From Gemmatimonadota bacterium (GTDB lineage Bacteria; Gemmatimonadota; Gemmatimonadetes; Gemmatimonadales; Gemmatimonadaceae): DNA of 64,000 nucleotides. The stretch lies in NCBI GenBank assembly GCA_028287305.1, contig JAQBPX010000014.1, positions 186,001 to 250,000 on the forward strand, in the 5' to 3' direction. The first letter of the stretch is position 1. The number at the start of each line of letters is the position of its first letter. The position numbers were made by a program, and so were the translations under genes. Positions 39,416 to 55,978 of this stretch are shown piece by piece. The notes under the pieces were generated by a model, which ran no database searches, was not told the DNA's origin, and saw nothing but the letters and a program-made list of their open reading frames with translations.

Positions 39416-40774
39416 TTAAGTATTACCTAACTTCGCCACGGCTGCAACCCCGTTCCGCGCGTCCCCCTCCGCCATCGAAGGCCGATACCGCAGCGCCTCC
39501 CCAACATGCGCTGTCCCAACGACTTCCGAGTCATCGAGGTCGGCAATCGTACGCGACACGCGCATCACCCTGTGGTAGGCCCGCGCCGATAGCCCCAGCT
39601 TCTCAGCCGCAGTTGCCAGCAGCCCACGCGCGTCGGGCTGAATCCCTCCATTGAGGTCCAGCCACCGTCCGCCCGCCTCGGCGTTCGACCGTATACCAAG
39701 GCGCCGGTATCGCAGCCGCTGCCGCGACCGCGCCCGCTCGACCCGCGCGCGCACGCTAGCCGACGACTCCCCTGGCTCCCGTGACCCGAGCTTGGCCAGC
39801 GCGACGCCCTGCAGCGTCACGTGCACGTCGATGCGGTCGATCAACGGACCCGAGAGGCGCGAGCGATAGCGCTGCACGTCCACCGCCGAACAGGTGCAGG
39901 GATGTGCGACGTCGCCGGCATGGCCGCAGGGACAGGGATTCGTGGCGCCCACCAGCGTGAAGCGCGCGGGGAAACCGACCGTGGCCCCCGCGCGCGCCAC
40001 CACCACGCGACCGTCCTCGAGCGGCTGCCGCATGGCTTCGAGTGCGTGTCGCGGAAACTCGAGCAGCTCGTCGAGGAACAGCACGCCGTGGTGTGCAAGG
40101 CTCACCTCCCCGGGACGCGGCGTGCTGCCGCCCCCCACGAGCCCCGCCGTGGAGATCGAGTGGTGCGGCGCGCGAAAGGGACGCTCCGCCAGCGCGCGCC
40201 CATGCGCGAGCATGCCCGCCACCGAGTGGATCGCGGTCGCCTCCAGGATTTCCTCCTCGCTCGGCGACGGAAGGATGGACGGCAGCCGTCGCGCGAGCAT
40301 CGTCTTCCCCGCTCCCGGCGGACCGATGAGCAGCGCGTTGTGCCCACCCGCCGCAGCGATCTCCATCGCGCGGCGCGCGGTCTCCTGGCCGATCACGTCG
40401 GAGAGGTCGGGGTGCTCGATCGGCTCGGCATGCCCGTTCGATTCGCAGCGCGCTGCATGGAGTTTTCCGTCAACGAGCCATGACACGAGCTCGAGCAAGG
40501 TTTCGGGCGCTGAGAGTGGCACACGTGCGACCAACGACGCTTCCGTCACGTTCGCCGGCGGAATCACGAGCGTGGGCACGTGCGCGCGACGCGCGGCGCG
40601 CCGAGCGACGGGCAGCACGCCTCGAATGGGACGGAGGGCACCGTCCAGTCCAAGCTCGCCGAGCAGCAGCACGTGCTCCAGGTGCTCGGTCGGGACGATG
40701 CCGAGTGCGGCGAGCACGCCGATGGCGATGGGCAGGTCGAAGGCGGTGCCGTCCTTTCGCAGGTTGGCGGGGGC
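39416..40774 (-). pseudogene. comM: comM/yifB-type Mg chelatase-like ATPase, 5' end removed by prophage
   Basis: The remaining coding part begins at APANLRKDGTAFDLPIA, which is about residue 60 of normal ComM proteins, and runs to a normal C-terminus. Walker A is GPPGAGKTMLA; sensor motifs include GVLFLDELLEFPRHALEAMRQ in two pieces and GATNPCPCGHAGD. ComM is a hexameric helicase that promotes branch migration in natural transformation. The N-terminal 60 or so codons are replaced by integrase sequence in another frame, so no full ComM can be made from this locus in the lysogen. The 5' part is predicted beyond the right window edge. Confidence 0.9.
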
Positions 40775-42474
40775 CTGCCAGACACTGTCATACCACCGGC
40801 CAAGCCCGACAGGGCGAGCGCCGACTGGTGGTGATCGGGGAAGATCATGCCAACCTCCGGCACTCGCCGGATACGAAGGGTGAGAGTGCGATCGGATTTG
40901 TCGTACACAGCAGAGGCAAGCCACGGGCGCACGAGCTCGCGCAGGGCGGGCCCGCCGGCACGGAGGGCGAGCGCCGCGAAGTCCCGCGTGGTGGCGACCA
41001 GCCGGTCGCGGAGGGTCGTCACCTGGGCAATGCGGCGGTCGGCAAAGCGCAGGCGCTCGAGCTCGGCGTGATAACCCTGGGCTCGAGCGCGGAGCTCGCT
41101 CATCGTGGCGCCAGCCTCACGCTCAGTCACGGTACCGCTCGCGATCGCGCTCACGAGACGTGCGCGCTGCACGTCCACCTTGCGCTGCTCTGCCTCGATC
41201 GCCGCCGAGCGACCGCTGGTGTCTCGCGTCGCGGCCGCGATGGCGGCGTCGATCTCCTGAGCGATGACGGCCTGCACCGCCGGATCAGCGGTCACCGCGG
41301 CGATCTCGCGCACTACCGCTTCCTCTACCCATTGCTTGCGAAGCGTGGCGATGCGACCCGAGCAAACCGCCGCGCCGTCGTCGGTGATCCCCTCGCGGTA
41401 GAAGCGGTACTTGCTCGGATCGTGGTCGGGGCCACGCTTGCCGCCACCGCCTCGAAAGGCTGAGCCGCAGGCGCAGTGCAGTAGCCCGGAGAGTGGATAG
41501 CCGCCCGAGGTGGCACGCCGCTCCTTGAAGTTGCGCTGCAGGAGCTGCTGCGCCTGGAGGTAGAGCTCGCGCGAGACGAGCGCGGGGTGGGCGTCGCGCA
41601 CCATCACCCACTCGCTCATGGGGCGCGCCGTCGGCGTGGGGCTGGTGCTCGCGCGATGCAACCGGCGGCACCACACGACGTCGCCCGCGTACACCGGGTT
41701 CTTGAGCATCGCGTGCAACGTTGCCCGGCTCCACTTCTTGGCCGGCCAGCGCGCGCGCAGCTGCTTCACCAGCATCCCGAGCGAGATACCGCCGGCGGCG
41801 TAGGTCTCGAACACGAGGCGCACGAGCTCCTGCTCCTCGATCGGGCCCGGCGTCAGGCGCGTGATCTCATCCTCAGCCTTCCGCTGATGCGCCTCGAGCA
41901 CGCGCTGTGAGCCGTCGTGCCGGGTCACTAGGCGGCGGTAGCCGAGCGGCGCCCTGGTCGACCAGCGGCCCTGCTCTGCGGTGGCGCGGCTCGCGCGCGA
42001 GGCGGTGCGCTTGAGGTTCGCCCGGTACTCCGACGCCTGCGCGCTCCCGATGAAGCGCATGACGCCGCGCGCTGTGCCGTCGGCGATCTCGTCGCCCTCG
42101 GCGAAGCGCACGATCCACCCCATGCGCTTGAGCACGAAGCGCCAGTGCGTCGCCTCCTCCGGATCATCGAAGCGACCGAACCGGCTGTCATTGAGCACCA
42201 GCACCGCGCCGGGCGTGGAGGCCGTGCGCGGGTTCGCCTCGCAGTAGGCGAGCATGCGCATGAACGCGGGCCGCCCTTCCGCCGTGGCGCCCGACGCGCC
42301 CGGATCCTCGAAGATGCACTCGGGCACGAGCACGCGGCCGAGTCGCAGGGCGTGCTCCGTGATGGCGCGCCGCTGCTCTGGCAGCGACGTGCGATCAGTC
42401 GCGGCCTGGGACTCGGTGGACACACGGGTGTAGCCGATCGTGTCCACGATCGGCGTCGTCGGGGTGGTGAGCAC
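40564..42474 (-). CDS. int: Large serine recombinase (phage integrase), 3' end fused out of frame to comM
   Basis: Catalyses prophage integration and excision. Catalytic domain: Ser19 in GYTRVSTESQ, then DSRFGRFDDPEEATH. The recombinase domain includes PLGYRRLV and LHAMLKNPVYAGDVVW. A zinc-ribbon-like part has LLHCACGSAF and AAVCSGR, followed by a long coiled coil. The last recognisable piece is DRTLTLRIRRVPEVG near 40865. Beyond about 40790 the frame runs in the wrong register over comM (SACSPHSASSRPSTW) for some 70 residues, so the phage-form C-terminus was probably changed by integration. The GTG at 42474 follows the previous stop; a TTG at 42510 is possible. Confidence 0.93.
   Translation of the reverse strand: MLTTPTTPIVDTIGYTRVSTESQAATDRTSLPEQRRAITEHALRLGRVLVPECIFEDPGASGATAEGRPAFMRMLAYCEANPRTASTPGAVLVLNDSRFGRFDDPEEATHWRFVLKRMGWIVRFAEGDEIADGTARGVMRFIGSAQASEYRANLKRTASRASRATAEQGRWSTRAPLGYRRLVTRHDGSQRVLEAHQRKAEDEITRLTPGPIEEQELVRLVFETYAAGGISLGMLVKQLRARWPAKKWSRATLHAMLKNPVYAGDVVWCRRLHRASTSPTPTARPMSEWVMVRDAHPALVSRELYLQAQQLLQRNFKERRATSGGYPLSGLLHCACGSAFRGGGGKRGPDHDPSKYRFYREGITDDGAAVCSGRIATLRKQWVEEAVVREIAAVTADPAVQAVIAQEIDAAIAAATRDTSGRSAAIEAEQRKVDVQRARLVSAIASGTVTEREAGATMSELRARAQGYHAELERLRFADRRIAQVTTLRDRLVATTRDFAALALRAGGPALRELVRPWLASAVYDKSDRTLTLRIRRVPEVGMIFPDHHQSALALSGLAGGMTVSGRPPPTCERTAPPSTCPSPSACSPHSASSRPSTWSTCCCSASLDWTVPSVPFEACCPSLGAPRVARTCPRS
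40766..40790. other. Predicted prophage attachment junction (att) in comM
   Basis: Comparison with ComM shows chromosomal coding up to about 40774. From about 40790 the DNA codes only for the integrase C-terminus. Serine integrases cross over at short shared cores, so the exact point cannot be set without the other junction or an empty site. Confidence 0.7.
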
Positions 42475-42476
42475 GG

Positions 42477-42650
42477 TCAGCTGGCCTCGCGGAGTCGGGT
42501 CGGCGTGCAATCGATCCCCTCAAGGGCGCACGCTATTGCGACAAGCTGTCGCGCCCACGCGCGCACGTCCACCGTCTCCGCGGCGCGCGTCACGCGCACG
42601 GCCTTCGTCGCCCGCGAGGGGGACGGCAGCGGCTGTACGGCGGCGCTCAC
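42477..42650 (-). CDS. Small phage protein
   Basis: A 57-residue product from a GTG at 42650, which overlaps the stop of the upstream gene (GTGA). Residues about 20-50 (ETVDVRAWARQLVAIACALE) could form a helix. The function is unknown. The stop lies 2 bp before the integrase GTG. Confidence 0.6.
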   Translation of the reverse strand: MSAAVQPLPSPSRATKAVRVTRAAETVDVRAWARQLVAIACALEGIDCTPTRLREAS

Positions 42651-42934
42651 GAGAGGGCTCCGTCGGCAGGGACGGCCGGATCCGGCAGCGCGGGACACGC
42701 GGGTAGCGAGCGCCACTGCTCGTTGATCCCCGCCAGCACGTCCTCGAGGCGGTTGAGCGCGCGCTGGGCGGTGGCGCGCGTCGCCGCAATGCGCGCCTCG
42801 GCCGTGGTGCATTCCTGCAGGAGCTCCAGCATCGCGATCCGCGCCGTGTTGGCCGAATAGCGGAGCACCTGCCGGTATCGCTCGTGCGCCTCGAGCACCC
42901 CTGCGCCGCTCGCGACGCTTCCAGGCTGAGTCAT
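42647..42934 (-). CDS. Small helical phage protein
   Basis: A 95-residue product; ATG 42934 overlaps the previous stop (ATGA). The centre is helical (VLEAHERYRQVLRYSANTA, ARIAATRATAQRALNRLEDV). The C-terminal ALPDPAVP is encoded by a copy of the GCCGGATCCGGC palindrome. No family was recognised. Confidence 0.65.
   Translation of the reverse strand: MTQPGSVASGAGVLEAHERYRQVLRYSANTARIAMLELLQECTTAEARIAATRATAQRALNRLEDVLAGINEQWRSLPACPALPDPAVPADGALS
42675..42686. repeat. GCCGGATCCGGC palindrome, copy 1
   Basis: Exact copy, in the last 13 codons of the 95-residue gene, close to its junction with the next gene. Confidence 0.95.
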
Positions 42935-43350
42935 CCGCCGCGCCTCATGTTGGTGGTGGTCGGGCACCGGTGCGGCGAGCCCAGGCCGTCGCGCTTCGCG
43001 GTCGGCTCGATCCCGAGCGGCGAGAAGGGCGTGTACGGCCGACGTCGGCCGGTCGTATCAGGCAGGATCCAGATCTGCCGGCTGCAGTGGCTGCACTCGC
43101 GCCCGGGCTCGCCCGCCGGGATGGGCACCAGGCGCGCGCGCTCGTCGTCGTACCGCTTCTGGCACCGGGGGGACGTGCACACCGGCGGCTTGAGCGAGGC
43201 CCACCGGCAACCCACGCTCTCGCTGTCCTTGAGCGTGATGCCAGAGACGGCCTCGTAGTACTCGCGCTCTGCGGGCGCGAGATCCCGAACGCGCACGATG
43301 CACGCGCTGGTCTCCCGGCACCCGCAGAACACGCACTGAGGGCTAGGCAT
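42931..43350 (-). CDS. Phage zinc-finger-like protein
   Basis: A 139-residue product; the start MPSPQCVFCGC at 43350 overlaps the parB-like stop by 8 bp. Cysteine pairs CVFCGC, VCTSPRCQKR and ECSHCSRQIW suggest two zinc-binding knuckles. Similar small zinc-ribbon proteins are common in phage early regions. Role unknown. Confidence 0.7.
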   Translation of the reverse strand: MPSPQCVFCGCRETSACIVRVRDLAPAEREYYEAVSGITLKDSESVGCRWASLKPPVCTSPRCQKRYDDERARLVPIPAGEPGRECSHCSRQIWILPDTTGRRRPYTPFSPLGIEPTAKRDGLGSPHRCPTTTNMRRGG

Positions 43351-45298
43351 CCGCGCCAACCTCCTCGAGCTCGTCATCGAGGGACGTGTCGCGCGCCATC
43401 AGCTCATCGTCGTCGTCCCCTCCGTCGTGCCCCATGGCTGCGAGCGCACGACCCTTCTTCTTTTTCGGCGCGGCATCCTCCTCGTCGTCTTCCTCCGCGG
43501 AGTCGATGAAGGAGTCAGGATCGCACGCGCGGTGCACACCCATGTCTATCTCCTCTTGGGTGGCGCCCTCGAGCTCGCCCTCGCAGACGTCGCAGGGGGT
43601 CTGTATCACCGGGCCGGGCGCATCTCCCCACGGCGTCTGCCGGCTCGCAATCTCTCGGAGCGCGGTCTCCTTCTCGAGCTGTAGGAGGGTCGCGGCCGGC
43701 GTGATCTTCTCGCCTTGCACGGCGCTGAACGCCATCACGATCGACACGAGCGGGCTTCCCTGCTCGTTGGCAAGCCACGCGCGTAGCTGCTCGCGGCGAT
43801 CGCCACTCCGCTTGTTGAAGGCCGTCGTGAGATTCTCCGGCAGCTCCTCCCCGATGATGTCCGCAGCCTGGCGTAGCTCGCCGAACACCTGGTCGGTGGA
43901 GTACGCGTTGAGGTGAACGCTGAAGACCGTGAGTAGCAGCTGGCGTGCGACCTCCGACGCGCTGTCCGGCAGCCGGTACTTGGAGCTCGACAATGCTTCG
44001 TTGAGTTGGGCCTTCACCGCCGACTCGATCTCTGCGCTGCGTGCATCCCAACGAGCGTTCCACGCGTCGCGAGCGTGCTTCACCGCAACCGTGTCGACGG
44101 TCATGACACCTTCGCTCGACTTGCCTTGCCAGTCCTTTGGCGCGTTCCAGCGCACGAGCTGCGCGTCGTCGATTACGAAGTCATCTGGATCGAAGGCCTT
44201 GGCGTTCTGGAAGTCGGTCGCCCACCGGTTGTCCTTCGTGAGTAGCACGTAACCGGCCGGCACCTTGTTGGACCCTTCCCACTGGATCACGGGCGTTCCC
44301 GCGGGCATCTGGAGCGCGGTCTTTCGCTTGGCGGCGTTACGAACCTCGGCCTTCGCGTGGACTTCTTCCAGATGGTCGCGTGCGGCCTTCACCAGCGGCT
44401 TCCACCAATCAGAGTTGCCGCAGTACTCCACGAGCTGCTTGTCGTATCCCTTCCGCGAGATGCGTCCGCAGGTGCACTCGACGTCGTGGCGCTTCACCGC
44501 GTCGGCCGCGATCGCGACGTCACCGTAGTGGAGTCCGTTCTTTCCCAGCGGGTAGAGGTGCTCGCGGTATGCCTGGGCCAGCTGATCTCCGAACTGCGAC
44601 ACAGGAGTGCTCGGCTTCCGCCACCACTGCCCCGTCGTCTCCTTCACGACGGCGTTGTGCACCGGCGCCGGCAGTCTGGAGTACTTCGTGATCTCCACCG
44701 CCTGGCTGACCGTGATGCCGCCGCTTTCGAGCAGCGAACCCCACGTCTCGGGCAGCTCCGCAATCCGCCGGCGATCGCCCAAGGTGGAGCGGGCGACGCC
44801 CAGGCGCTTCGCCAGCTGCGCGTCGGAGAGGCCATGCTGCTCGATGAGCCGCTTGAAGAGCTTCCCCTCCTCGATCGGCGTGAGCGGCTCGCCCTTGTTC
44901 TGCAGGAACTGCGCGATCAGGCGATCAGCCGGATCTTCGACCTCGAAGGTGATGCGACACGGGAGGCAACCGTCCGGCGCATCGGGACGCACGCGCGCCA
45001 TGCCATCCGTCGCGCGCCAGCGACGCTCGCCGTTCACGAGCATGAAGCGATCGGCCGTATTCGGATTCGGCCGCACGGTCAGGATCTCGAGCAGACCCTC
45101 ACTCTCGATCTGCGCGCGCAGCTCGTCGAGTCCTTCGAAGATCGTGCGCACCTGGTCGGGGTCAGGATCGATCAGCGTGCGCGGCAACCACAGGATCTCT
45201 TCCTTCACGAGCGCGGCGTACTCGCTGTCGGGCGCGTTGCTCTCGACAGGCTCAGCACTATCGCGGCGGGGTGCGGCCTTGGGGTGTGACTTTGCCAT
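43343..45298 (-). CDS. ParB/Spo0J-family protein without a ParA partner
   Basis: A 651-residue protein. The N-terminal ParB domain (about 35-130) holds the CTP-binding-type motifs GERRWRA (90-96) and LIAQFLQNKGEPLTPIEEG. The HTH is SDAQLAKRLGVARSTLGDRRR (157-178). A long central domain with Cys pairs (C275/C277 and a later CDVCEG) and a very acidic tail follow, so it is about twice the length of chromosomal ParB. ParB proteins bind parS palindromes and spread as CTP-dependent clamps. No ParA gene is seen. A near-consensus parS lies about 3 kb away at 48355. It starts 8 bp after the gene at 45307. Confidence 0.88.
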   Translation of the reverse strand: MAKSHPKAAPRRDSAEPVESNAPDSEYAALVKEEILWLPRTLIDPDPDQVRTIFEGLDELRAQIESEGLLEILTVRPNPNTADRFMLVNGERRWRATDGMARVRPDAPDGCLPCRITFEVEDPADRLIAQFLQNKGEPLTPIEEGKLFKRLIEQHGLSDAQLAKRLGVARSTLGDRRRIAELPETWGSLLESGGITVSQAVEITKYSRLPAPVHNAVVKETTGQWWRKPSTPVSQFGDQLAQAYREHLYPLGKNGLHYGDVAIAADAVKRHDVECTCGRISRKGYDKQLVEYCGNSDWWKPLVKAARDHLEEVHAKAEVRNAAKRKTALQMPAGTPVIQWEGSNKVPAGYVLLTKDNRWATDFQNAKAFDPDDFVIDDAQLVRWNAPKDWQGKSSEGVMTVDTVAVKHARDAWNARWDARSAEIESAVKAQLNEALSSSKYRLPDSASEVARQLLLTVFSVHLNAYSTDQVFGELRQAADIIGEELPENLTTAFNKRSGDRREQLRAWLANEQGSPLVSIVMAFSAVQGEKITPAATLLQLEKETALREIASRQTPWGDAPGPVIQTPCDVCEGELEGATQEEIDMGVHRACDPDSFIDSAEEDDEEDAAPKKKKGRALAAMGHDGGDDDDELMARDTSLDDELEEVGADA

Positions 45299-45306
45299 TG
45301 GATCCT

Positions 45307-45684
45307 CTAGCGGGCGATGGGCTCCCCGGCCGCATGCCAGGCGTCGGCGAGTTCGCTGACGCGCTGGAAGACAGCGCCGGGGGTCACGTTGTGTCGGAGC
45401 CCGGTGGGGTTCGGCTGCGCCGCGCCGGCGCGCACGCCGTTCACGGTGTCGCGCAGCAGATCATCCCACACGAGCTGGGCGGGTTTGTGGGTGGGAAAGC
45501 GCGACGCGATCGCCTCGGCGGCGAGGAAGCGCTTGAGGTGCTGCGGCCACGCCTCGTGCGGGGGCGTCATCGGCACGCCGCACGTCGGACAGGCGAGGCT
45601 TTCCGGCGTGGTGTCCAACGACGTCGAGCACACCGTGCAGCGGCGTGCCTTCGGAGGGAGCGCGCCCATCAAGGGGTACTGCAT
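45307..45684 (-). CDS. Phage protein with N-terminal zinc ribbon
   Basis: A 125-residue product; start 45684 overlaps the preceding stop (ATGA). CTVCS and CPTCG (residues 16-36) form a zinc ribbon. The rest (HLKRFLAAEAIASRFPTHKP, FQRVSELADAWHAAGE) is helical. The function is unknown. Confidence 0.7.
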   Translation of the reverse strand: MQYPLMGALPPKARRCTVCSTSLDTTPESLACPTCGVPMTPPHEAWPQHLKRFLAAEAIASRFPTHKPAQLVWDDLLRDTVNGVRAGAAQPNPTGLRHNVTPGAVFQRVSELADAWHAAGEPIAR

Positions 45685-46160
45685 CAGACGCCGAGCTCCA
45701 GCTTCGCGCTGATGTAGTCCAGCTCGCGCTTGAGGTCCGCCGGCGAGAGCGTGCCGCGAATGCGCTCGTCGGCCTTTCGGTGCAGCTGCGCCTTGCGCGC
45801 CTTCTGGACGTCGTCGTCATCCTTGCCGGCGTTGAGCATCGGGTGCGCGTAGAGCGCCTCGCAGCGCTTGGCGAGCACCACCCAGCTCATCGGATCCTCA
45901 ATCGGCACGCCGCTGCCGGATCCGGCTGCGATCGCGCGCGTCGCGAGCACCTGCTCGATGCCGTGACAGAGGCCGCGCAGTCCCGGGCTCGCCACCACCG
46001 CCAGCCGGTAGGTGAACGACCGGTGCGCCGACTCGAGCACCGCGGTCGGGATCTCCGCGAGCTCCTTCCCTGCCCACCCGCCATGCTCACCGGCACGACC
46101 GAACAGCCGGAGGCGCTCCGGTGCGTCCGGCGCGACGAGTGGCATGACGGTGGACGCCAT
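45684..46160 (-). CDS. Phage protein of unknown function
   Basis: A 158-residue product starting MASTVMPLVAPD at 46160, overlapping the previous stop (TAATG). It is largely helical, for example ELAEIPTAVLESAHRSFTYR and AQLHRKADERIRGTLSPADL. The AGSGSGVP segment is encoded by palindrome copy 2. The longer frame to 46370 is Arg/Gly noise. Confidence 0.65.
   Translation of the reverse strand: MASTVMPLVAPDAPERLRLFGRAGEHGGWAGKELAEIPTAVLESAHRSFTYRLAVVASPGLRGLCHGIEQVLATRAIAAGSGSGVPIEDPMSWVVLAKRCEALYAHPMLNAGKDDDDVQKARKAQLHRKADERIRGTLSPADLKRELDYISAKLELGV
45915..45926. repeat. GCCGGATCCGGC palindrome, copy 2
   Basis: Exact copy inside the 158-residue gene, where it codes for a Gly/Ser-rich linker. 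Confidence 0.95.
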
Positions 46161-46390
46161 TACGCGGTCCTCCGCTGCGGCATGGGCGCGAACGCGCGGC
46201 GCGGGTGCACCTCGGGCACCGGCGCACGGCCCAGTACCCGGGGCTCTCCCTCTTCGTCCACGTCCTCGATCGCCACGGTGTCCTTCGGCACCGTTGCCGG
46301 GCGCGGCGCGGCCGCCGGCGGCGGCGCCAGACTGTCGCGCGCGTCGAAACTCGCGCGCCCCCATTCCCACTTACTGCCTCGTCGAGCCAT
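46160..46390 (-). CDS. Small Pro/Arg-rich phage protein
   Basis: A 76-residue product (MARRGSKWEWGRASFDARDS..., ending FAPMPQRRTA). It probably is disordered. It heads this part of the early chain: its stop overlaps the next ATG, and a hairpin lies just upstream. Confidence 0.55.
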   Translation of the reverse strand: MARRGSKWEWGRASFDARDSLAPPPAAAPRPATVPKDTVAIEDVDEEGEPRVLGRAPVPEVHPRRAFAPMPQRRTA

Positions 46391-46466
46391 CGGTGTTGCC
46401 CTCGCTCCATCGGCACTCGTATCTTTGTGGCAGAGAGCGGTGCCGTTGCGCTCTCGCTCGTGTCTC

Positions 46467-46506
46467 CATGCCCCCTGGCCTCCGTGGAAAGGCGCCAGGG
46501 GGCATG
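46467..46506 (-). terminator. Hairpin inside the early operon
   Basis: Perfect 13-bp arms CATGCCCCCTGGC and GCCAGGGGGCATG with a 14-base loop lie in the 129-bp gap between the 38- and 76-residue genes. No T-tract follows on the minus strand, so it may be an attenuator or processing site rather than a full stop. The rest of 46391-46519 shows no gene. Confidence 0.55.
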
Positions 46507-46519
46507 GTCGTAGTGGTCA

Positions 46520-46636
46520 TCAGGTCCGTCGTCGGGTGTCGTCGGTGAGCATCGTGAACGCGAAGCTCACCGCGTGCATCACCGCGCAGATCGCGAGGAT
46601 CGTGAGCGCGATGATCTGGAACCGGGGCGCGCTCAC
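46520..46636 (-). CDS. Tiny single-pass membrane protein
   Basis: A 38-residue product from a GTG at 46636 that overlaps the previous stop (GTGA). It is essentially one membrane helix, IIALTILAICAVMHAVSFAF. Role unknown. Confidence 0.55.
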   Translation of the reverse strand: MSAPRFQIIALTILAICAVMHAVSFAFTMLTDDTRRRT

Positions 46637-46872
46637 CGCCGCCTCCACGTGGAGCGCTTCGTCGCCTTGCGGATCGCGGCCTTCTGCTCCCGCTCCGCAC
46701 GCACTGCCATGTCCGCGGCGCGCACGTAGGCCAAGCCGTAGGGGTAGAGGAACGCGCGCCGGCGTCCCTTCTCCCGCAGCTCGAGCCCCGCGGGCGTGAG
46801 CGTGGCGATTAGCACGGTGCCGTCCTGCGCCACGACCACGCGGCGCACGGGGCGAGTGAGGCGGGTCGTCAT
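46633..46872 (-). CDS. Small basic phage protein
   Basis: A 79-residue product starting MTTRLTRPVRRVVVAQDG at 46872 (ATGA overlap). A beta-rich first half (VVVAQDGTVLIATLTPAGLE) is followed by a basic helix ending in STWRRR. No family was recognised. Confidence 0.6.
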   Translation of the reverse strand: MTTRLTRPVRRVVVAQDGTVLIATLTPAGLELREKGRRRAFLYPYGLAYVRAADMAVRAEREQKAAIRKATKRSTWRRR

Positions 46873-47144
46873 TCGGGAAACGCCTCCTCGAGTTCGACGA
46901 GCCACGCGGGCAGCTCCGCTCGCAGTGGGAACTCCGGATTCCATCTCGCGTCACTCGTGATGAGTACGGCGAGCGAGTGCTGCACCACGTAGCGTAGGGT
47001 GCAGAGATCCTCCCACACCGCGTCCTCGCTGCGGTGAGGATCACCGCTCAGCACCTTGATGCCCTGTCGCAGGACCTTGATGGCCTTGAGGCGCGCCAAA
47101 GCCTGCTGCTCCGCGCGCGCCTTCTTCGAGATGCGCGAGGTCAT
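46869..47144 (-). CDS. Small helical phage protein
   Basis: A 91-residue product starting MTSRISKKARAEQQALARL at 47144 (ATGA overlap), with an acidic C-terminus (AWLVELEEAFPE). The longer frame to 47303 is a shadow. Function unknown. Confidence 0.6.
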   Translation of the reverse strand: MTSRISKKARAEQQALARLKAIKVLRQGIKVLSGDPHRSEDAVWEDLCTLRYVVQHSLAVLITSDARWNPEFPLRAELPAWLVELEEAFPE

Positions 47145-47389
47145 GCACCCTCCTTGGCATCGCGCGCCTTGCGGTCGGCGCGCGGCAGCCGGCCCGTGAG
47201 GGTATGGATCACGCGCACGGCGATCTCCCGATCGAGTTCGTCGATCGCGGCGCTCGCGGCCTTCATGCGAGCCACGGCCTCGTCGCTGCGCGTCTTCTGC
47301 CACTCCTCCTCAGCCCTGATGAACTCGTCGCGCGCATCGGCGGCGTTCACGGCATACTGGCGGAGCGACACCAGGCTGGTGCGGGTCAT
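47141..47389 (-). CDS. Small helical phage protein
   Basis: An 82-residue product starting MTRTSLVSLRQYAVNAADAR at 47389 (ATGA overlap). It is predicted helical and charged (DEFIRAEEEWQKTRSDEAVA). Function unknown. Confidence 0.6.
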   Translation of the reverse strand: MTRTSLVSLRQYAVNAADARDEFIRAEEEWQKTRSDEAVARMKAASAAIDELDREIAVRVIHTLTGRLPRADRKARDAKEGA

Positions 47390-47973
47390 GAGAGCACCCC
47401 GCCGGCGGCGAGCTGGATGCCGGACTCGGTGAGCCGCGCTTCGCGCTCGAGCATGCGGGCCCGCTCCTGGCTGATCGCAGACAGGGAGCGCAGCACCTGC
47501 GCCTCCTCGCGCAGCACGAGCGGCGACAGCGGGCGTCCCACTGCCCGCGCACAGCGGCGCTCCATCTGGAGGATGTCTTCGCGCGCATCGATGCGCTGCT
47601 CCTCGAGGTCCAGCTCCTCCCAGCCCCGCCCGCCGGATCCGGCGTAGAGCCGCGTGATCAGGTCGTCGAGGTAGGTGAGCACGATCCGGAGCCGCGCCTC
47701 GGGCCACTTCGCGTGCGCCATCCACACGAACACGCGGGCGATCAGCTCCAGCGGATCAGAGCGACCGGCTGAGCGGGTGAAGCGGTAGAGGATGCCGCCG
47801 GCCGGACCCGCGGCGACCAGCTTCCAGCGCAGCTTGAGCGTGGCGTCGTCCTGGTGGGTGCGCACCGACTCCCACACCGCGCGCGTCTCGTCGCCCAGGA
47901 GGAAGTCCTCCGGGACCATTCGGTCCGAGCTGCGTGCGAACGCTTGGCGCGATTTCGCGTGTTGGGGCATCAT
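47386..47973 (-). CDS. First gene of the leftward early chain; unknown function
   Basis: A 195-residue product from ATG 47973 (or the next ATG, 47970). Helical segments include DPLELIARVFVWMAHAKWPE and LVLREEAQVLRSLSAISQER, suggesting a coiled coil at the C-terminus. LYAGSGGRG is encoded by palindrome copy 3. Frames further upstream run into the HTH gene. No family was recognised. Confidence 0.65.
   Translation of the reverse strand: MMPQHAKSRQAFARSSDRMVPEDFLLGDETRAVWESVRTHQDDATLKLRWKLVAAGPAGGILYRFTRSAGRSDPLELIARVFVWMAHAKWPEARLRIVLTYLDDLITRLYAGSGGRGWEELDLEEQRIDAREDILQMERRCARAVGRPLSPLVLREEAQVLRSLSAISQERARMLEREARLTESGIQLAAGGVLS
47632..47643. repeat. GCCGGATCCGGC palindrome, copy 3
   Basis: Exact copy within the 195-residue gene, again encoding a Gly/Ser linker. 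Confidence 0.95.
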
Positions 47974-48032
47974 CGTTCTCCGATCATTGGGGCATGACAG
48001 CACGACCACGGGGACCACCAACAGCTGAGCCG

Positions 48033-48257
48033 CTAGGCTGCGGCTTCCGGGAACAGCTCTTCCACGGGCTGCCCGATCACTCGAGCGAAGACCTCCTGCA
48101 CCCTTCGGCTGGTGCACTTGTCCTTGAAGACCTCCCAAGCCGTCTGCCGCGAGACGCCAGCTTCCCGCGCTACGTCCGCGATCGAGAGTCCCGCCTTCAG
48201 AAGCCCGATCTTTCGGTCGAGCTGGATTGGCGTTAGCTTGGCTGACTTGTCAGGCAT
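48033..48257 (-). CDS. Ner/Cro-like HTH regulator of the leftward early operon
   Basis: A 74-residue product starting MPDKSAKLTPIQ at 48257, preceded by GAGG. The HTH is LSIADVAREAGVSRQTAWEVF; CTSRRVQEVFARVIG follows, as in Ner/Nlp-type or Cro-like phage regulators. It is the first minus-strand gene and faces the XRE gene across a 121-bp spacer. This is the layout of a lytic/lysogenic switch, and it would favour the lytic or early state. Confidence 0.82.
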   Translation of the reverse strand: MPDKSAKLTPIQLDRKIGLLKAGLSIADVAREAGVSRQTAWEVFKDKCTSRRVQEVFARVIGQPVEELFPEAAA

Positions 48258-48378
48258 TCGGTTTTTCCTCGGCAAGGCTGTACAGCGGTAAGTCGCACGG
48301 TGGTATGTGTAACACTGTATGGCTTACGATGTCAAGAGTGAGTTACGCTGTCAGGGTTTCACGTGAAACAGGGGGGCT
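48258..48378. promoter_or_regulatory. Divergent switch region between Ner-like and XRE regulators
   Basis: The spacer is visibly AT-richer than its surroundings. It contains TTACGATGTCA at 48324-48334 and TTACGCTGTCA at 48343-48353, direct repeats 19 bp apart (about two helical turns) and plausible operator half-sites. A near-consensus parS follows at 48355. A GGGGGG stretch serves as ribosome site for the GTG at 48379. Confidence 0.7.
48355..48370. promoter_or_regulatory. parS-like site, 15/16 match
   Basis: GGTTTCACGTGAAACA differs from the broadly conserved bacterial parS consensus TGTTTCACGTGAAACA only at the first base. It lies 9 bp before the XRE start and about 3 kb from the ParB-family gene. 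It could be bound by the phage ParB or the host ParB. Confidence 0.8.
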
Positions 48379-48849
48379 GTGGAACAGGAGAAACGCCGCG
48401 CTCTTCTGGGGGCTTGGATGAAGGCGCGCAGGGCTGCGCTAGGCCTCACGCAGAGGGCGCTCGCCGAGCGGCTTGGAGCCCACAAGCAGACCATCGTGAA
48501 GTACGAGGCCGGTGGATCCGACATCTCCGGTGATCGACTAGGCGCGCTCGTCGAAGTACTCGGGCCACTGCCCAGCGCTTTCGGTGGAGACGAACAGCGT
48601 GAGCGCGTTGCGCGACGCTTGCCGAAAGAGGCGGCGGATGTAGTGCAGGGCTACCTCGACCGCATGCGCGAGGCGACTTGCTCCGAGGAGCAGATCGACG
48701 AGGCCGAGAGGGTGATGGTCGATGGCGCGTACAACAAGCTCAACAAGCGAGACATTCGCGCGCGAACGGTGGACGACCTCATCACCGACATTGACGCTGC
48801 TTGGGACTTCATTCGCTACGTGCTGCGCAAGGAGGGAATGAGGCTGTGA
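48379..48849 (+). CDS. XRE-family repressor-like regulator
   Basis: A 156-residue product from a GTG preceded by GGGGGG. The HTH is LTQRALAERLGAHKQTIVKYE (residues 23-43, in the LTQRALAERLG and HKQTIVKYE blocks). The remaining 90 residues are helical and may oligomerise. It is coupled (GTGA) to the ImmA-type gene, the usual arrangement in which the peptidase cleaves the repressor to induce the phage. It probably maintains lysogeny. Confidence 0.87.
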   Translation: MEQEKRRALLGAWMKARRAALGLTQRALAERLGAHKQTIVKYEAGGSDISGDRLGALVEVLGPLPSAFGGDEQRERVARRLPKEAADVVQGYLDRMREATCSEEQIDEAERVMVDGAYNKLNKRDIRARTVDDLITDIDAAWDFIRYVLRKEGMRL

Positions 48850-49283
48850 CGCGGTCCTTCTTTCTGCTCGATCGTGCGAAGATGCGCAGGAACAGCGTGC
48901 CAGCATTCGTACAAAAGATGCAGCGGCTACATCCCGAGCTTGAGCGCGTTGTACTGTGGGACGATTTCCTCAGGATCTGCGAACGCGAGGAAGTGATCGT
49001 GCGCATTGTTCCTCTGACTCGACCGGCGCGACTGGTGCGCTACGGACGACGCGTGTGCATTCAGCTCAACAAGGCGATCAGCGACCGAACTCTGCGTACT
49101 CGTTATGGCATGCATGAACTCGCGCACTTCTGGAGAGATGACCCCGGTGAGCCGTGCTACTACGCCGAGGAAGAGGCGGTGGCTAGCCGATCGGAGGACT
49201 TCGCAGATGTGTTTGCCTGGCTCGTAACATCGCCGGCAAGCAACCCGCTACGTGACCCTCAACTGGAGATTCATTTTCCGTGA
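48846..49283 (+). CDS. ImmA/IrrE-type metallopeptidase
   Basis: A 145-residue product from a GTG overlapping the XRE stop. The zinc motif is HELAH in TRYGMHELAHFWRDD, with the acidic third-ligand region EEEAVASRSEDFADVFAWLV. ImmA-type enzymes cleave their partner XRE repressor after damage signals. Here it would act on the adjacent XRE protein. Confidence 0.87.
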   Translation: MTRSFFLLDRAKMRRNSVPAFVQKMQRLHPELERVVLWDDFLRICEREEVIVRIVPLTRPARLVRYGRRVCIQLNKAISDRTLRTRYGMHELAHFWRDDPGEPCYYAEEEAVASRSEDFADVFAWLVTSPASNPLRDPQLEIHFP

Positions 49284-50239
49284 TGCGCCACGTCAACCAT
49301 GCCATCGCCACAGCCGCCGCTATCAGCTTGGCGAGCGTTGCCCCGGTCTCCGCGCAGAGCAGTTGGGAGGTGGCGCTCAGGGGAATCGGAAGTACGAACG
49401 TGAGTTCGGCTCAGAAACTCGTCGGCGAGCCGTGCTCGATCGAGGTCGCGCATCCTAGCGCAGCCGTACTTCGCTCGCCTCTTTCGCAAAGCAGCGCCCT
49501 TCGAGGATGGGATAGAGATCGTTCGAGGTGGCGACTGGTAAATGCTCCGACAGATCAGGAGGATCTCGACGTTGAAATCGTGGGGGTCCAATGCGCGGGC
49601 GGAGTACCGACATTTGCGTTCGTTCGTGCTAAGGGCGCGCTCCTACTGGTCGAGGTGCCGCAACTCAGTCCCGAGCTAACCAGCGCAAGCTCTGGTGCGC
49701 TATTTCTGCGCGCTCCAAAGGACTCCATCGAGCTCGCGTTTTTTGCGCCGCGACCCTGGCGCATGCGTTCGGGATCAACGTATCGCGCCAACTACGCAGC
49801 GGAGCGCGCGCCGGGGGACTCCCCGGGCGGCAATCCCTACTTGTCTGGCGAGAACAACGCAACAAAGCCGGCTACAAAGGAAGCGAAATACAAGGGCACT
49901 CTTGCCGACAGCTTGGTAATGATGGCGGACTGGCGCTTCTCCTCGTGCAAATCGGCATTGGAGCTATCTATCAGCACCCCACTGCTGAGTAGCTCCCCGG
50001 AGCTACGTCAATTGGCCGTGAAGTCATGCTATGACGAGAGCGATACGTTCGTCCACTATCGCCAAGCCCGTATGCGACTGACACCAAGAGTGCGCGCGCT
50101 GACGGACTCGTACTTTGAATATTGGCGCTCGGCGATGGACGGAGTCGTGGATGCCTCTGGTAAGGAACTCCGGGACATGGCGCGCGAACTCAGCGTTAGG
50201 AAGTCTCGAGTCGAGCTCAGCGAGCCGCCGAGACCATGA
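49283..50239 (+). CDS. Exported protein of unknown function (prophage cargo)
   Basis: A 318-residue product; ATG 49283 overlaps the ImmA stop (TGATG). Signal peptide MRHVNHAIATAAAISLASVAPVSAQ in two blocks, cleaved near residue 25. The mature part has one Cys pair (EPCSIEV, VQCAGG) and later SSCKSA/KSCYDE. No family was recognised. Being exported and coupled to the repressor genes suggests expression in the lysogen, that is a lysogenic-conversion gene. Confidence 0.7.
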   Translation: MRHVNHAIATAAAISLASVAPVSAQSSWEVALRGIGSTNVSSAQKLVGEPCSIEVAHPSAAVLRSPLSQSSALRGWDRDRSRWRLVNAPTDQEDLDVEIVGVQCAGGVPTFAFVRAKGALLLVEVPQLSPELTSASSGALFLRAPKDSIELAFFAPRPWRMRSGSTYRANYAAERAPGDSPGGNPYLSGENNATKPATKEAKYKGTLADSLVMMADWRFSSCKSALELSISTPLLSSSPELRQLAVKSCYDESDTFVHYRQARMRLTPRVRALTDSYFEYWRSAMDGVVDASGKELRDMARELSVRKSRVELSEPPRP

Positions 50240-50484
50240 CCACCTACGCCTCCGAGCCCCCCGTCACGTTCACGCACGACGGCCATGCCTTCGTGTGCCG
50301 CCTCGCGTTCCGAGTGGTGCCGGATCCGGCGGGCGCCGGCGAGCTCGCGATCGCGGAGTGGGAAGTCCAGCTCGACGATCGCCTGGTCGGCCACTACGCT
50401 GAAGACCATACGGTGCAGCGCGGCACGATCGAGCAGCGCGTGCGCCGGATCTATGACCAGCAGCAGGAGCTCGGGCTGCGGTGA
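50236..50484 (+). CDS. Small cargo protein
   Basis: An 82-residue product, ATGA overlap with the previous gene. It is beta-rich at first (FTHDGHAFVCRLAFRVV), then acidic. VVPDPAGAG is encoded by palindrome copy 4. Function unknown. Confidence 0.65.
   Translation: MTTYASEPPVTFTHDGHAFVCRLAFRVVPDPAGAGELAIAEWEVQLDDRLVGHYAEDHTVQRGTIEQRVRRIYDQQQELGLR
50319..50330. repeat. GCCGGATCCGGC palindrome, copy 4
   Basis: Exact copy inside the 82-residue gene, encoding a PDPA segment. Confidence 0.95.
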
Positions 50485-50497
50485 GGAGTACGCTGGC

Positions 50498-50722
50498 GTG
50501 AGGACCCTGCTGTGGAGCGTCGCGGCGTTCGGCGCCGCGGCCGCGTTGACGGTGGCGCGCGTCCAACGCCGCCGTCGCCGGCAGCTGCGACACCAGAGTG
50601 AGGAGGCGCGGCGGGATCGCGCCTGGCAGACGATGGTCGCTCGAGCGAGCGATCCGACCGGAAAGGTTGCATCAAGGTCAATGAATGACGCCGGCGAGGT
50701 GACTAATGGCGAAGTCATATAA
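50498..50722 (+). CDS. Small single-pass membrane protein
   Basis: A 74-residue product from a GTG preceded by GAGGAG. N-terminal helix LLWSVAAFGAAAALTVA, then a basic stretch (RVQRRRRRQLRHQSEEARR). The positive-after-helix pattern suggests N-out topology. Function unknown. Confidence 0.6.
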   Translation: MRTLLWSVAAFGAAAALTVARVQRRRRRQLRHQSEEARRDRAWQTMVARASDPTGKVASRSMNDAGEVTNGEVI

Positions 50723-50766
50723 GTGCCACTGCGGCATCGACATTTCCTTCCGGCAGAGGTTTTAGA

Positions 50767-51777
50767 ATGAGAAAGCGGCTCCAGGTGTTCGTGTCTTCAA
50801 CCTATTCCGACCTGCTCGAAGAGCGGCAGGCTGCTGTCTCGGCCATCCTCAAGGCAGGACACATTCCCGCCGGTATGGAGCTGTTCACTGCCGGCGACGA
50901 CTCGCAGATGGAAACCATCAAGCGGTGGATTGACGAGTCCGACGTCTACATGCTGATCCTCGGTGGCCGCTACGGCTCGATAGAGAAGACTTCGGGGCTC
51001 AGCTACACTGAACTCGAGTACAACTACGCTATTGAACTGGGCAAGCCGGTCTTCGCTGTCGTGATCGAGGAGAAATCACTCGAGCAGCGCGTGAGGGAAC
51101 GGGGGATGGCAGTTCTCGAGCGCGACAAGCCCGCAGAGCTCAAGCGGTTCCGGGAGATCGTGCTATCGCGCATCTCCTCCTTCTTCGCGCACGCCAATGA
51201 CATCAGGCTTGCTACGTACGAGACTCTTCACGACTTCGAGAAGCGAAAGCAGTTCGTCGGGTGGGTGCACGGTTCGGAGGTTCCGAACGTTAGTGAGCTC
51301 AATGCGCGCATCGAGGAACTCGAATCGGAGAACAACGGACTGCGCGAGGCTTCCTCCGGGGAGCAAGTGCGCCGAAACACTGAGGACGACGACTTCCCCC
51401 AACTTGCGGAAGATCTCCTTCACGAGATGGTGAGTGTCCCTGACCAACTCCGGGAAGACGGCTTGATCCCCCCGACACTACCAATCGCCTCAACCTTCTG
51501 GAGTCAGCGAAAGCCCCTGATCAAGGGCGTTGACAACGCATACAACGCAACGAAGATGGCAATGTTTCTCTTCGACTCGATTCTTCCGAGTCTCACGATC
51601 TTTGGACTGGCTGAGAGCGAGAAGGTTGCAGGTGTTCAGTGGCGTCGCTATGCCCTGACCAAGCGTGGCGTTCGCCTGTTGAACTATTTCCGGACGCATC
51701 CTGAGCTGCGAGATCGCGCCATGGCCCCGCTACAGGAGTACTACGATGCCGCGGACGCTCGCCTAGCCCAAGGGTGA
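50767..51777 (+). CDS. DUF4062 domain protein (candidate defence cargo)
   Basis: A 336-residue product. The N-terminal 100 residues are DUF4062: LQVFVSSTYSDLLEERQAAV, AGMELFTAGDDSQM and DESDVYMLILGGRYGS followed by SYTELEYNYA. A predicted coiled coil (NARIEELESENNGLREASSG) and a C-terminal domain of about 120 residues, rich in aromatics and possibly winged-helix, follow (RYALTKRGVRLLNYFRTHPE). DUF4062 resembles TIR/TIR-like folds and is often fused to STAND-type sensors, so a role in superinfection exclusion or defence is plausible but not shown. It has its own ribosome site and stands alone. Confidence 0.85.
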   Translation: MRKRLQVFVSSTYSDLLEERQAAVSAILKAGHIPAGMELFTAGDDSQMETIKRWIDESDVYMLILGGRYGSIEKTSGLSYTELEYNYAIELGKPVFAVVIEEKSLEQRVRERGMAVLERDKPAELKRFREIVLSRISSFFAHANDIRLATYETLHDFEKRKQFVGWVHGSEVPNVSELNARIEELESENNGLREASSGEQVRRNTEDDDFPQLAEDLLHEMVSVPDQLREDGLIPPTLPIASTFWSQRKPLIKGVDNAYNATKMAMFLFDSILPSLTIFGLAESEKVAGVQWRRYALTKRGVRLLNYFRTHPELRDRAMAPLQEYYDAADARLAQG

Positions 51778-51792
51778 GCGTGCTCCCTGCCC

Positions 51793-51817
51793 GGCAACGC
51801 CGCCGGCCGGATCCGGC
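51793..51817 (+). repeat. 25-bp direct repeat, copy A (contains palindrome copy 5)
   Basis: Starts GGCAACGCCGCCGGCC and ends in the palindrome at 51806-51817. It is identical to 52928-52952. It lies in the 118-bp spacer after the DUF4062 gene. Confidence 0.95.
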
Positions 51818-51895
51818 CGCAGAGGGAATGGCTGCATTTTATTGCGCGTCCGTTAGCACAATGACGACTGAGCTCGTGATGGGCGAAGCTGCCGC

Positions 51896-52912
51896 ATGAC
51901 AACCATCCTGAAGCAACTCGCCGCGCTCGAGCGCTGGGCGGCGCTCAACGAGCCCTCTGCCGCGATGCAGACGATTGTCGACATTGAACGGCGCTACAGG
52001 TCCGTGTGGGATACGCTTCGGATAGGCGGTGCAGTCGCCCAACGCATCGCCGAGAACGACGCGGCGATGGACAGGATGGTCGCCAGACTGACCGTCTATG
52101 ATCGGCCGCTCGCCCTGATCAACGAGGTGACGAGAGCGACCCAGGGTTTGGATGCCCTGTTGAGGCGCAACGACCAGGTCATGGCAGAACTCGAGCGGTA
52201 CGCAGTGGGGGTCGCCCGCGCCGCTCAGATTGAGACTGCTAGCGCCCTCGCCGAGCGTGTCGCTGCCATTGATGAAAGCGTGCAGGCTGCCCAGACGCTC
52301 GCGCGATTATTAGAACATGCGAAGGTTACCCCTTGGAGCGCGCCAGCGTCCCGGCGCCGCCGCGATCGCGCTAGCAGAGAGCGCGGCGCTGCTCGCCTGG
52401 CCTTGCTACCGTCGGAGCAGGCGATCGACCGGTGGGAAAGTCTCACACCGGAAACGGTCGCGGCGATCGACGTTGAGTTCATCGCGCTCACCCTCCAGCA
52501 CGAGGAGACGGATCCGACCGTTGTGTTGCTGGTTGCGATCGCAGCCGTAGCAAGGCAGCTGCTGGAGGGGCCAGCCGTTCAGCGACTTCTCGAGATCGCA
52601 CTGATAATCTCGCAGCTCCTGTTCGATTACTCCTTGGCGACAGCCGGCGCCCAGGAATCGGCGGACCAACTCGAGGCTATCGATCGCGCCAGCGGGCGCA
52701 TCGAGCAGGGGGTGCGCACGGCGAACGTTCGTCTCAGCCGATATCAGTTCCGACTTCGGGAACGCGCCTCGGACAATGCCCGCCCCCTCGTCACGATCGC
52801 GGAAGGAGTAGCCCTAAACGTCCATCGTCACCGTGGTGCGTGGGCCTTGGTCTCCACGACTGAGGGGTCGCCAGTTGTTGGCTGGGTGCGCGAGAAGGCC
52901 TTGGTGCACTGA
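51896..52912 (+). CDS. Coiled-coil protein with C-terminal SH3-like domain (prophage cargo)
   Basis: A 338-residue product. Residues about 1-150 are helical and heptad-like (AALERWAALNEPSAAMQT, AVGVARAAQIETASALAE). A basic linker with RRRRDR follows. Residues about 205-250 include a hydrophobic stretch (VVLLVAIAAVARQLLEG, LLEIALIISQLLFDYSLA). The C-terminal 45 residues resemble a bacterial SH3 module (VTIAEGVALNVHRHRGAWAL, VVGWVREKALVH). The gene is bracketed by 25-bp direct repeats, as if inserted as a unit. Function unknown. Confidence 0.7.
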   Translation: MTTILKQLAALERWAALNEPSAAMQTIVDIERRYRSVWDTLRIGGAVAQRIAENDAAMDRMVARLTVYDRPLALINEVTRATQGLDALLRRNDQVMAELERYAVGVARAAQIETASALAERVAAIDESVQAAQTLARLLEHAKVTPWSAPASRRRRDRASRERGAARLALLPSEQAIDRWESLTPETVAAIDVEFIALTLQHEETDPTVVLLVAIAAVARQLLEGPAVQRLLEIALIISQLLFDYSLATAGAQESADQLEAIDRASGRIEQGVRTANVRLSRYQFRLRERASDNARPLVTIAEGVALNVHRHRGAWALVSTTEGSPVVGWVREKALVH

Positions 52913-52914
52913 CC

Positions 52915-53220
52915 ATGCTTCCCGCATGGCAACGCCGCCGGCCGGATCCGGCACCGGATGCGCTCCCTCGAGTGGAGTTTAAGAAAGGCGAGGTCTACTT
53001 CGTCGACGCAGCTGCGATGATGTGGCACGTGTACGATCGACGGCTCGAGCCTGGGGTCCGGATCACCCTCAGCTGCGGCGCCGGCGGAGCCAACACGCGG
53101 GTGTTCGTGCCGCAGTCCGGACCGAGCCGCTCCTACAAGTTCACCGTCGGCGAGCTGCGGGACGTGAAGGTGGAGCACCTCGAGCGGCAGCTCGAGCATG
53201 CGAAACCGAGCAGGTCCTAG
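52915..53220 (+). CDS. Small cargo protein
   Basis: A 101-residue product; ATG 52915 lies 2 bp after the previous stop. Its N-terminus (AWQRRRPDPAPDAL) is encoded by direct repeat B, so the ancestral start may have been at a later GTG (52972, VEFKKGEVYF). The rest is beta-rich (GVRITLSCGAGGANTRVF). Its stop overlaps the convergent gene's stop. Confidence 0.6.
   Translation: MLPAWQRRRPDPAPDALPRVEFKKGEVYFVDAAAMMWHVYDRRLEPGVRITLSCGAGGANTRVFVPQSGPSRSYKFTVGELRDVKVEHLERQLEHAKPSRS
52928..52952 (+). repeat. 25-bp direct repeat, copy B (contains palindrome copy 6)
   Basis: Identical to 51793-51817 and 1,135 bp from it. The palindrome occupies 52941-52952. The pair encloses exactly the 338-residue gene. 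Confidence 0.95.
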
Positions 53221-55103
53221 CCATCACCGCGCTGTGCATCCTGAGCATCGACGATACGCGCCAATGCAAGCTGAAAAAATTCTCGCGCGTACTTCGCTCC
53301 AGTGACCACTACCTCGAAGCGCTGCCCCGGCATGACACTTTGCTCGAACTTCTGCAGCTCGTATCCCCCCTCAAGGAGATTCGGCCGTCCGACCCTTCCA
53401 AAAACCCCGGGCTCAAGCTCGCAGTAGAGTCCATCGTAGTCCACGGAAAGAACCGTCGCCGTCGCGCGCACGCCGTCCCGATACTTGCGTCGAGCAACTC
53501 TGAAGTCTTTCGTCTCGATTGCCTGACGGCTGAGCACAATCACATCGGATGCGTGATCGAGCTCCGAGATGCGCGCAGTTGTGCGCATGTGAAGTTCGGG
53601 CGCGAGGTAGTCCTCCATCTCGGGCGCCAACCAGCTCCATTCGTGTGGCTGAATCATCCCGAAAAATTCTAGTTCAGGATGGTCGGGGCTAAGCAGCCTC
53701 ACGCAAATCCGATCCTCCTCGATCCGAACAACCTCACAAGCCATGTCGAATCCGACCGGCGGTATCGCCTTCTCCTCCCAAGGCGACGGGAGAAGTGCCT
53801 TCCTGCTTAGTCGGATCACCTGACGTACTTCCTTTATCTCGCAGCGATAATCAATACCGGGACTGAAGAACAACTCGATGCTGCCATCATACCCCCACGC
53901 GGCGTCGGCGCGATTCATCGTGGCGTCGAAGCCAGCGACCTGGAACAGCGCCCTCTCCGACTGCACCTCGATGGCCTTCGCATCTACGGCGGCTCCGGGC
54001 TTTAGCCCCAGCTCCCCTAACCGCGCTGCGAGCGTACCGTGGGGTAAGGCGAGGGTGTCTCGGCGATAATGGTGAAGCGGAAGGCTGTCGCCGCCGCGGG
54101 ATTTTCGATGCACGTGTGAACTCAGCACCGCCTGTAGTCGCGGATCGCGCGAGAGCTTCTCGTGGATTTCGTCACAGAGGTAGGTGTTCGCGTTGGTCAC
54201 ACCCATCAAATAAATGCTCGTGCACCCACCGGCCAAATGGAGACCTGCTGCCTGCACGTACGGCAGTGTCCCTTGCGCGGCGGTGATTTCCTTCGATGTC
54301 AGGACGATTCCAACCTTGATGTGGTCCGACGTGAAGCGCAGAGGAATGCTCTCATCACCTGGCTCCCTCAAGGCTCGTTTCCGAAGCCATCCCAGGAATT
54401 CTCGCAGCTCACTCGCCACGTTTCCACGGGGCGCCTTGTCTGCAAACTGGTCATCGAGATAGACCAACTCCTGCAAGAGAATGGACTGAAAGAGTCCACC
54501 CTCGTCGATATCCTCGAGTATTGGAAGTTGCTGCAGCAGCTCGGGAAGCTGCGCCGCCGACGGCTCCAACAGGTCAGTGTGATAGTGGCGACGAGCTTCC
54601 TTGCCGAGGTGCTCGGTGAATAGGCGCACCATCATTAGGTCGAGAGCAACAACCACGCTCATCGGCATGTATGACCGCGCGTGCGGCCACAGAATTCGTT
54701 TCATGGTGAACCACAGAGCCATGATCATGTTGCGCTCTGGATCGTTCTCATGCCGCATGCGAATGATCACTTTGCCGTCCTTCAGCCGAGCGTCACCCGA
54801 CTCCTTAACCCACGACACCTGCAGGTTCACGGTATCGATTCCCGCTACGCTGCGAAGCAGATGCGCGTTAAGAAACTGCCCGGTCCGACGCTCGACCTGC
54901 CGAGCGATACGCGATCGGCCTGCCCAAGTGAAGGTGCGTGCGAGCACCCCGAGAAGCGCGTCGACTCCGCGTTCGATCGTCTTCTGCGCAAGAATGGGAA
55001 CGACCATTCCTAGGAGAAGAATCAAGACGGCGCCCAGCGCGAGCGGAGCAACCGCCTGATTCGGAATGGCGGTACGCACAAGAAAGGCGCCTAGGAAAGT
55101 CAT
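53217..55103 (-). CDS. Membrane-anchored protein with S1-like C-terminal domain (cargo)
   Basis: A 628-residue product. Membrane helix near residues 15-38 (AVAPLALGAVLILLLGMVVP). The centre is mixed (MIMALWFTMKRILWPHARS, ELREFLGWLRKRALREPGDE). C-terminal 70 residues fit an S1/OB RNA-binding fold (ATVLSVDYDGLYCELEPGVFGRVG, then PGQRFEVVVTGAKYAREFF). No catalytic motif was recognised. It overlaps the 52915 gene tail-to-tail and follows a 90-residue gene by 47 bp. It might sense or bind nucleic acid at the membrane; defence or stress roles are guesses. Confidence 0.7.
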   Translation of the reverse strand: MTFLGAFLVRTAIPNQAVAPLALGAVLILLLGMVVPILAQKTIERGVDALLGVLARTFTWAGRSRIARQVERRTGQFLNAHLLRSVAGIDTVNLQVSWVKESGDARLKDGKVIIRMRHENDPERNMIMALWFTMKRILWPHARSYMPMSVVVALDLMMVRLFTEHLGKEARRHYHTDLLEPSAAQLPELLQQLPILEDIDEGGLFQSILLQELVYLDDQFADKAPRGNVASELREFLGWLRKRALREPGDESIPLRFTSDHIKVGIVLTSKEITAAQGTLPYVQAAGLHLAGGCTSIYLMGVTNANTYLCDEIHEKLSRDPRLQAVLSSHVHRKSRGGDSLPLHHYRRDTLALPHGTLAARLGELGLKPGAAVDAKAIEVQSERALFQVAGFDATMNRADAAWGYDGSIELFFSPGIDYRCEIKEVRQVIRLSRKALLPSPWEEKAIPPVGFDMACEVVRIEEDRICVRLLSPDHPELEFFGMIQPHEWSWLAPEMEDYLAPELHMRTTARISELDHASDVIVLSRQAIETKDFRVARRKYRDGVRATATVLSVDYDGLYCELEPGVFGRVGRPNLLEGGYELQKFEQSVMPGQRFEVVVTGAKYAREFFQLALARIVDAQDAQRGDG

Positions 55104-55150
55104 CCTAGGCGCCCTCGATTGCGGCGGTCCGCGTTGGCGTACGGCGTACG

Positions 55151-55423: not shown

Positions 55424-55817
55424 AAGAGAGCCTCCTCTTCCCGCCCGGACGGGATGTCCTGCATGAATTCCCGGCGCCGCGAACTCTCCCGTTCGACCGA
55501 CTGCGCCGTTGCTCATCGTACGGACCCGTGAGGGTACGGGTTGCACGATTGAGGCCAGCCACCCTGCCTAAGTGCGCAAGGCGATGTAGTTAAACCCCTA
55601 TCGCGTATAGCAGTTCCGCCCGCTCGGCCGTAGCCGAGAGGGCACCCACCACGCACCTTGAGAGTCTCGGCTCGGAGACCGCGTCTCCGCCCCGTCGACG
55701 CTGAGAACGTATCCAACACGCTCAGCAAAGGATGTGACTCACGATACCGCGATCAGAGGACGCACAGGCAAGGGGGTAGGCCAGCGTCGGCAACTCGTGA
55801 GACTCCAACGACTTGCG

Positions 55818-55952: not shown

Positions 55953-55978
55953 GAAGTCCTGGTCAACCCTCCCTAGCG

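Follow-up and report, generated by a model that had tools for sequence, protein, structure and literature searches.

The locus raises the question of what has interrupted comM, exactly where in the gene the break lies, and what the event means for the host gene and for the integrase gene that abuts it. The window analyzed comprises 64,000 nucleotides (contig C12:186001-250000 of a Gemmatimonadota genome, labeled G000). The comM part that it contains encodes the AAA+ Mg_chelatase domain (PF01078, E=3.5e-92) and the C-terminal domain (PF13335, 9e-28), both whole, and the match to the N-terminal ChlI domain (PF13541) begins at profile position 50. When the whole genome was searched with a comM model, a piece at C12:276098-276325, on the strand of the 3′ part, matched model positions 1-74; the 5′ end that the first-pass annotation had expected at the other prophage boundary is thus present there, with 69 complete codons preceding a short core shared by both ends. 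Comparison of the junctions, including sequence beyond the window, gives ...AACCTGTCG followed by CCCGC and GACATAAAC on the 5′ side of comM, and ...GGCAGGCC followed by CCCGC and CAACCTGCG on the 3′ side. The break, first placed at codon 60, therefore lies at codon 70. The 5′ fragment as it stands reads ...NLSPAT and then TAA, this stop being two codons beyond the first codon of the core. Fusing the flanks at CCCGC in silico yields an uninterrupted 520-aa ComM frame, and exact excision of the prophage would rebuild this frame. The same annotation had named a second intact comM elsewhere as grounds for giving up its reading; the genome-wide model search found none, its sole other match (20.6 bits) being an 823-aa frame, probably of a Lon-type protein.

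Genes between the two cores, which lie on a single contig, were predicted by a simple codon-usage gene call and then scanned against PHROGs. These scans identified packaging genes (terminase large subunit TerL, 4e-211; small subunit TerS; portal, 5e-110), head genes (maturation protease, decoration, major capsid, 1e-68) and tail genes (the distal tail protein Dit and a minor tail protein), together with an endolysin, an HTH regulator, a DNA methyltransferase and a peptide deformylase. Terminase, portal, capsid, tail, lysis, and regulator genes are all found between the att sites, as in tailed temperate prophages (Caudoviricetes), and the element is a complete-looking tailed-phage prophage. The original proposal that a prophage splits comM is borne out: the 5′ and 3′ parts flank the stretch of phage genes, share its core, and restore a precise frame once joined, the arrangement of a large serine recombinase (LSR) element in a comM/Mg-chelatase gene. 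The features are collected in the table. The peptide deformylase gene (Pfam 1e-28, phrog_2890) lies beyond the window at C12:273136-273825, and a DUF4062 protein is encoded at 50767-51777 among plus-strand genes that may be cargo. Outside the prophage, directly downstream of comM, 38701-39084 encodes a PemK/MazF-like toxin and 39081-39416 is a small ORF upstream of the toxin gene; the two are likely a toxin-antitoxin pair. A 3874-aa ORF, also outside the prophage, occupies 9615-21239 on the minus strand.

Table. Features of the interrupted comM locus and of the prophage, in window positions unless a contig is named.
Feature	Position	Strand	Basis or remark
comM 3′ part (codons 70-520) with whole AAA+ Mg_chelatase and C-terminal domains	39416..40771	-	Pfam, joined ORF
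Integrase ORF tail of 69 residues, overlapping comM in another frame, integrated form only	40564..40771	-	
att core, left prophage end (CCCGC on the - strand, CCC GC(C) = Pro70-Ala71)	40767..40771		junction comparison
Prophage, half within the window	40767..64000, on to C12:276130		49,359 bp between cores
LSR integrase, part within the prophage, 579 codons counted from the TTG at 42510	40772..42510	-	Pfam, phrog_95
ParB-like protein, prophage	43343..45298	-	Pfam
HTH regulator, candidate repressor	48418..48849	+	
DNA methyltransferase, phage	55979..56776	-	phrog_56, E=1e-80
Endolysin-like	61869..62375	-	phrog_2649, E=1e-9
att core partner copy, far prophage end	C12:276126-276130 (window 90126-90130), beyond the window		
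comM 5′ part	C12:276131-276339 (window 90131-90339), beyond the window	-	comM model search

The integrase carries a Resolvase domain (PF00239, 1e-17), a Recombinase domain (PF07508, 5e-19) and a zinc ribbon (PF13408, 5e-6), and matches the PHROGs family phrog_95, "integrase" (E=7e-66). Catalytic, Recombinase and zinc ribbon domains are those of the LSR phage integrases, a class of about 450-700 aa. It should be noted that its start is uncertain, and one downstream of the TTG is possible. Relatives were sought in 298, later 395, genomes of the phylum and in 179 genomes of the family. Three good relatives were found, with 48, 49, and 41% identity, in G021 and G200 (same family) and in G041 (same order), and all three adjoin comM at the identical Pro-Ala codons; the more distant integrases, among those fetched, do not adjoin comM. 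The comM parts are 51 kb apart on one contig in G021 and on separate contigs in G200 and G041. Most of the 179 family genomes have an uninterrupted comM, fragmented genomes being uninformative in this survey, and among the family matches listed a comM starting at profile 61-64 occurs only in the LSR carriers G000, G021, and G200. Apparent truncations of comM at profile 398-428 in G079, G218, and G081 were rejected, as these genes are full length with inserts. Two scans of viral contigs recovered no relatives of the integrase, and a scan of genome contigs returned only the G021 and G041 records and one distant Clostridiales match. Integrase relatives in G318 (contig C68) and G191 (contig C14) match only in the region beyond the catalytic domain and have one internal stop; they look like remnants, because comM is uninterrupted in both genomes.

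A complete-looking 51-kb tailed prophage occupies the identical comM codon in G021 (G021:C37:109001-163000), and it also encodes helicases and methyltransferases. Its terminase, portal and capsid families differ from those of the G000 phage, with little in common beyond the integrase; integrase and site are thus shared by otherwise largely unrelated phages.

The cores of all four elements have CCNGC in common, and since N differs between the two G021 junctions, the crossover falls at CC or GC. A 5-bp core alone is short, but normal among LSRs. Centring on CC gives a summed attP dyad symmetry of 51/100 over the four elements, a value reached by 0 of 20,000 shuffles and coming mostly from G200 (18/25) and G041 (14/25); the three neighbouring centres give 23-31. 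The short core with dyad-symmetric arms that is characteristic of LSR sites is accordingly found here, with symmetry strong for the four elements together and weak for that of G000 alone (11/25, p=0.05). The 3′ end of the integrase gene adjoins the 3′ part of comM in G000 and G200, and the 5′ part in G021 and G041. Read along the integrase gene, the predicted crossover dinucleotide is CC for one pair of elements and GG for the other. CC is non-palindromic, and the central dinucleotide sets polarity in LSRs, which would account for the two opposite orientations. A palindromic GC crossover as their source was dropped in favor of CC, on which the attP symmetry centres.

Very probably, a tailed temperate phage inserted itself by means of its own LSR into comM at the conserved Pro70 (NLSPANLRKDG). 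Integration would be centred on the CC that opens the Pro70 codon, and a single crossover would leave a 5′ part of 69 codons and a 3′ part of codons 70-520. The putative attP would lie at the 3′ end of the integrase gene with no stop preceding it, and for this reason the lysogen integrase would end in out-of-frame comM and that of the circle in phage sequence read from the far end of the element. The prophage is presumably able to excise.

In other bacteria, the ComM helicase helps transforming DNA to recombine (PMC11472951). The insertion cuts its N-terminal domain and leaves the AAA+ part as an open frame, and ComM function is presumably lost. That ComM is not abolished, with some function kept by an AAA+ part made from an in-frame ORF beginning in the prophage (GTG, window 40924), appears unlikely: this 502-aa ORF (39416-40924) does place 51 residues encoded by the prophage ahead of comM, which it enters at about residue 70, but it lacks much of the N-terminal ChlI domain, and open frames of such length are common by chance in the GC-rich DNA here.

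Neither comM half looks decayed. Intact comM genes have 0-5 changes in invariant columns, and the counts here lie in that range, at 2/142 in G000 (R45C, D72N) and 0 in both G021 and G200; in G041, a member of another family, there are 9, most of them conservative. Undecayed halves fit an insertion that is recent, or a gene that excision still returns to use. The latter would be the case under an active lysogeny like that of the Listeria comK phages, in which the G000 prophage would excise under some condition, rebuild comM and transformation, and then reintegrate; the precise restoration of the frame on joining the flanks also agrees with it, as do the DprA and ComEC found in the genome. We nonetheless regard it as quite improbable, given that a recent insertion is also compatible with the state of the halves and that DprA and ComEC say little about transformability. 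The same two families match in control genomes such as E. coli, and reading competence status from them was dropped as uninformative.

As the first-pass annotation had it, the integrase frame runs out of register into comM for 69 residues, to a stop at 40564, and its suggestion that integration alters the integrase C-terminus holds in silico for all four elements, whose tails differ between prophage and circle. In each of them the frame has no stop from the end of the conserved body (VPxV motif) to the core, over about 5-25 codons. The integrated-state tails in comM DNA measure 69, 55, 17, and 7 residues in G000, G021, G200, and G041, and the predicted circle tails 82, 30, and 40 residues in the first three; these circle tails have no sequence in common, and the conserved body stops before the core. 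The G000 circle tail holds a CxxGH...CxxC motif of HNH type (phrog_1492, E=4e-8). A conserved LSR fusion with this Cys-motif tail was considered and rejected: it has only a weak match, to a hypothetical protein of a Gordonia phage, and is absent from the tails of the relatives. Because only a short, unconserved tail is altered, the change is most likely an unimportant consequence of the overlap between attP and the 3′ end of the integrase gene, the tail being presumably neutral. It is highly improbable that the swap acts as a functional switch, in which the circle-tailed integrase integrates and the comM-tailed lysogen form is inactive or altered, for although the frame is open across the core in four of four elements and that of the G000 circle enters the HNH-type stretch, the circle tails share no sequence, the conserved body ends short of the core, some 47 stop-free codons over four GC-rich elements have by rough estimate a chance of about 0.2, and the Cys-motif ORF has a possible GTG start of its own (C12:276075). 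We would likewise give very little weight to the broader idea of a comM-specific Gemmatimonadota integrase lineage that keeps attP in the end of its gene, where integration rewrites the C-terminus and hence its activity or direction; if true, such an attP would be a memory of the recombination state within the integrase itself.

With the insertion itself as the preferred reading, the range of hosts with a phage attachment site in comM gains a poorly studied phylum. The related integrases that use one codon in both orientations form a natural case for comparison, and the predicted attP/attB pair of this new integrase group could become a genetic tool in Gemmatimonadota. The locus is also relevant to the proposal that disrupting transformation genes benefits mobile elements, without proving it.

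The A118-type comK prophages of Listeria are LSR phages that show active lysogeny. They resemble the element described here in that an LSR phage splits a competence gene, although the gene differs; regulated, reversible excision that restores the host gene is the mark of the comK type, and what the G000 locus shows of it is the restored frame. The comK parallel drawn initially is apt as an analogy only, and Wolbachia phage WO and the LSRs surveyed by Durrant et al. come nearer to the present case. Elements are found in comM across species and are said to profit from blocking transformation (Croucher et al., PMC4774983). Tn6022/AbaR (TnsF) and Tsy elements likewise have comM as their insertion site and target its Walker B part; unlike the G000 element they are Tn7-like or tyrosine-recombinase based, and the TnsF elements hit Walker B, not codon 70 (PMC10293859). 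Positions 4205-5104 of the Evtepia phage record PV036445.1 hold comM codons 1-299, ending LAHHGV in the Walker B region, which is a second, different insertion point within comM; the piece is annotated there as a hypothetical protein of the phage but appears to be part of a bacterial gene.

Earlier work has already described LSR prophages in comM/Mg-chelatase genes. The sr1WO prophages of Wolbachia are located in a magnesium chelatase gene and, like the element in G000, are LSR prophages within a comM-type gene with gene parts at both ends; the host phylum differs, and only for WO has attP been verified by sequencing particles and the circle been observed (PMC9203015). Outside the supplementary lists of Durrant et al., we found, as far as we have seen, no description of this Gemmatimonadota integrase lineage, host phylum, or exact site. 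According to Durrant et al. (2022, PMC10083194), 12.4% of predicted site-specific LSRs are directed at the "magnesium chelatase/ATP-dependent protease" gene, and competence genes are enriched among LSR targets. The G000 group shares its target gene with these LSRs, and to what that source, its lists aside, describes it adds Gemmatimonadota as hosts, integrases 41-49% identical, the exact codon, and two orientations.
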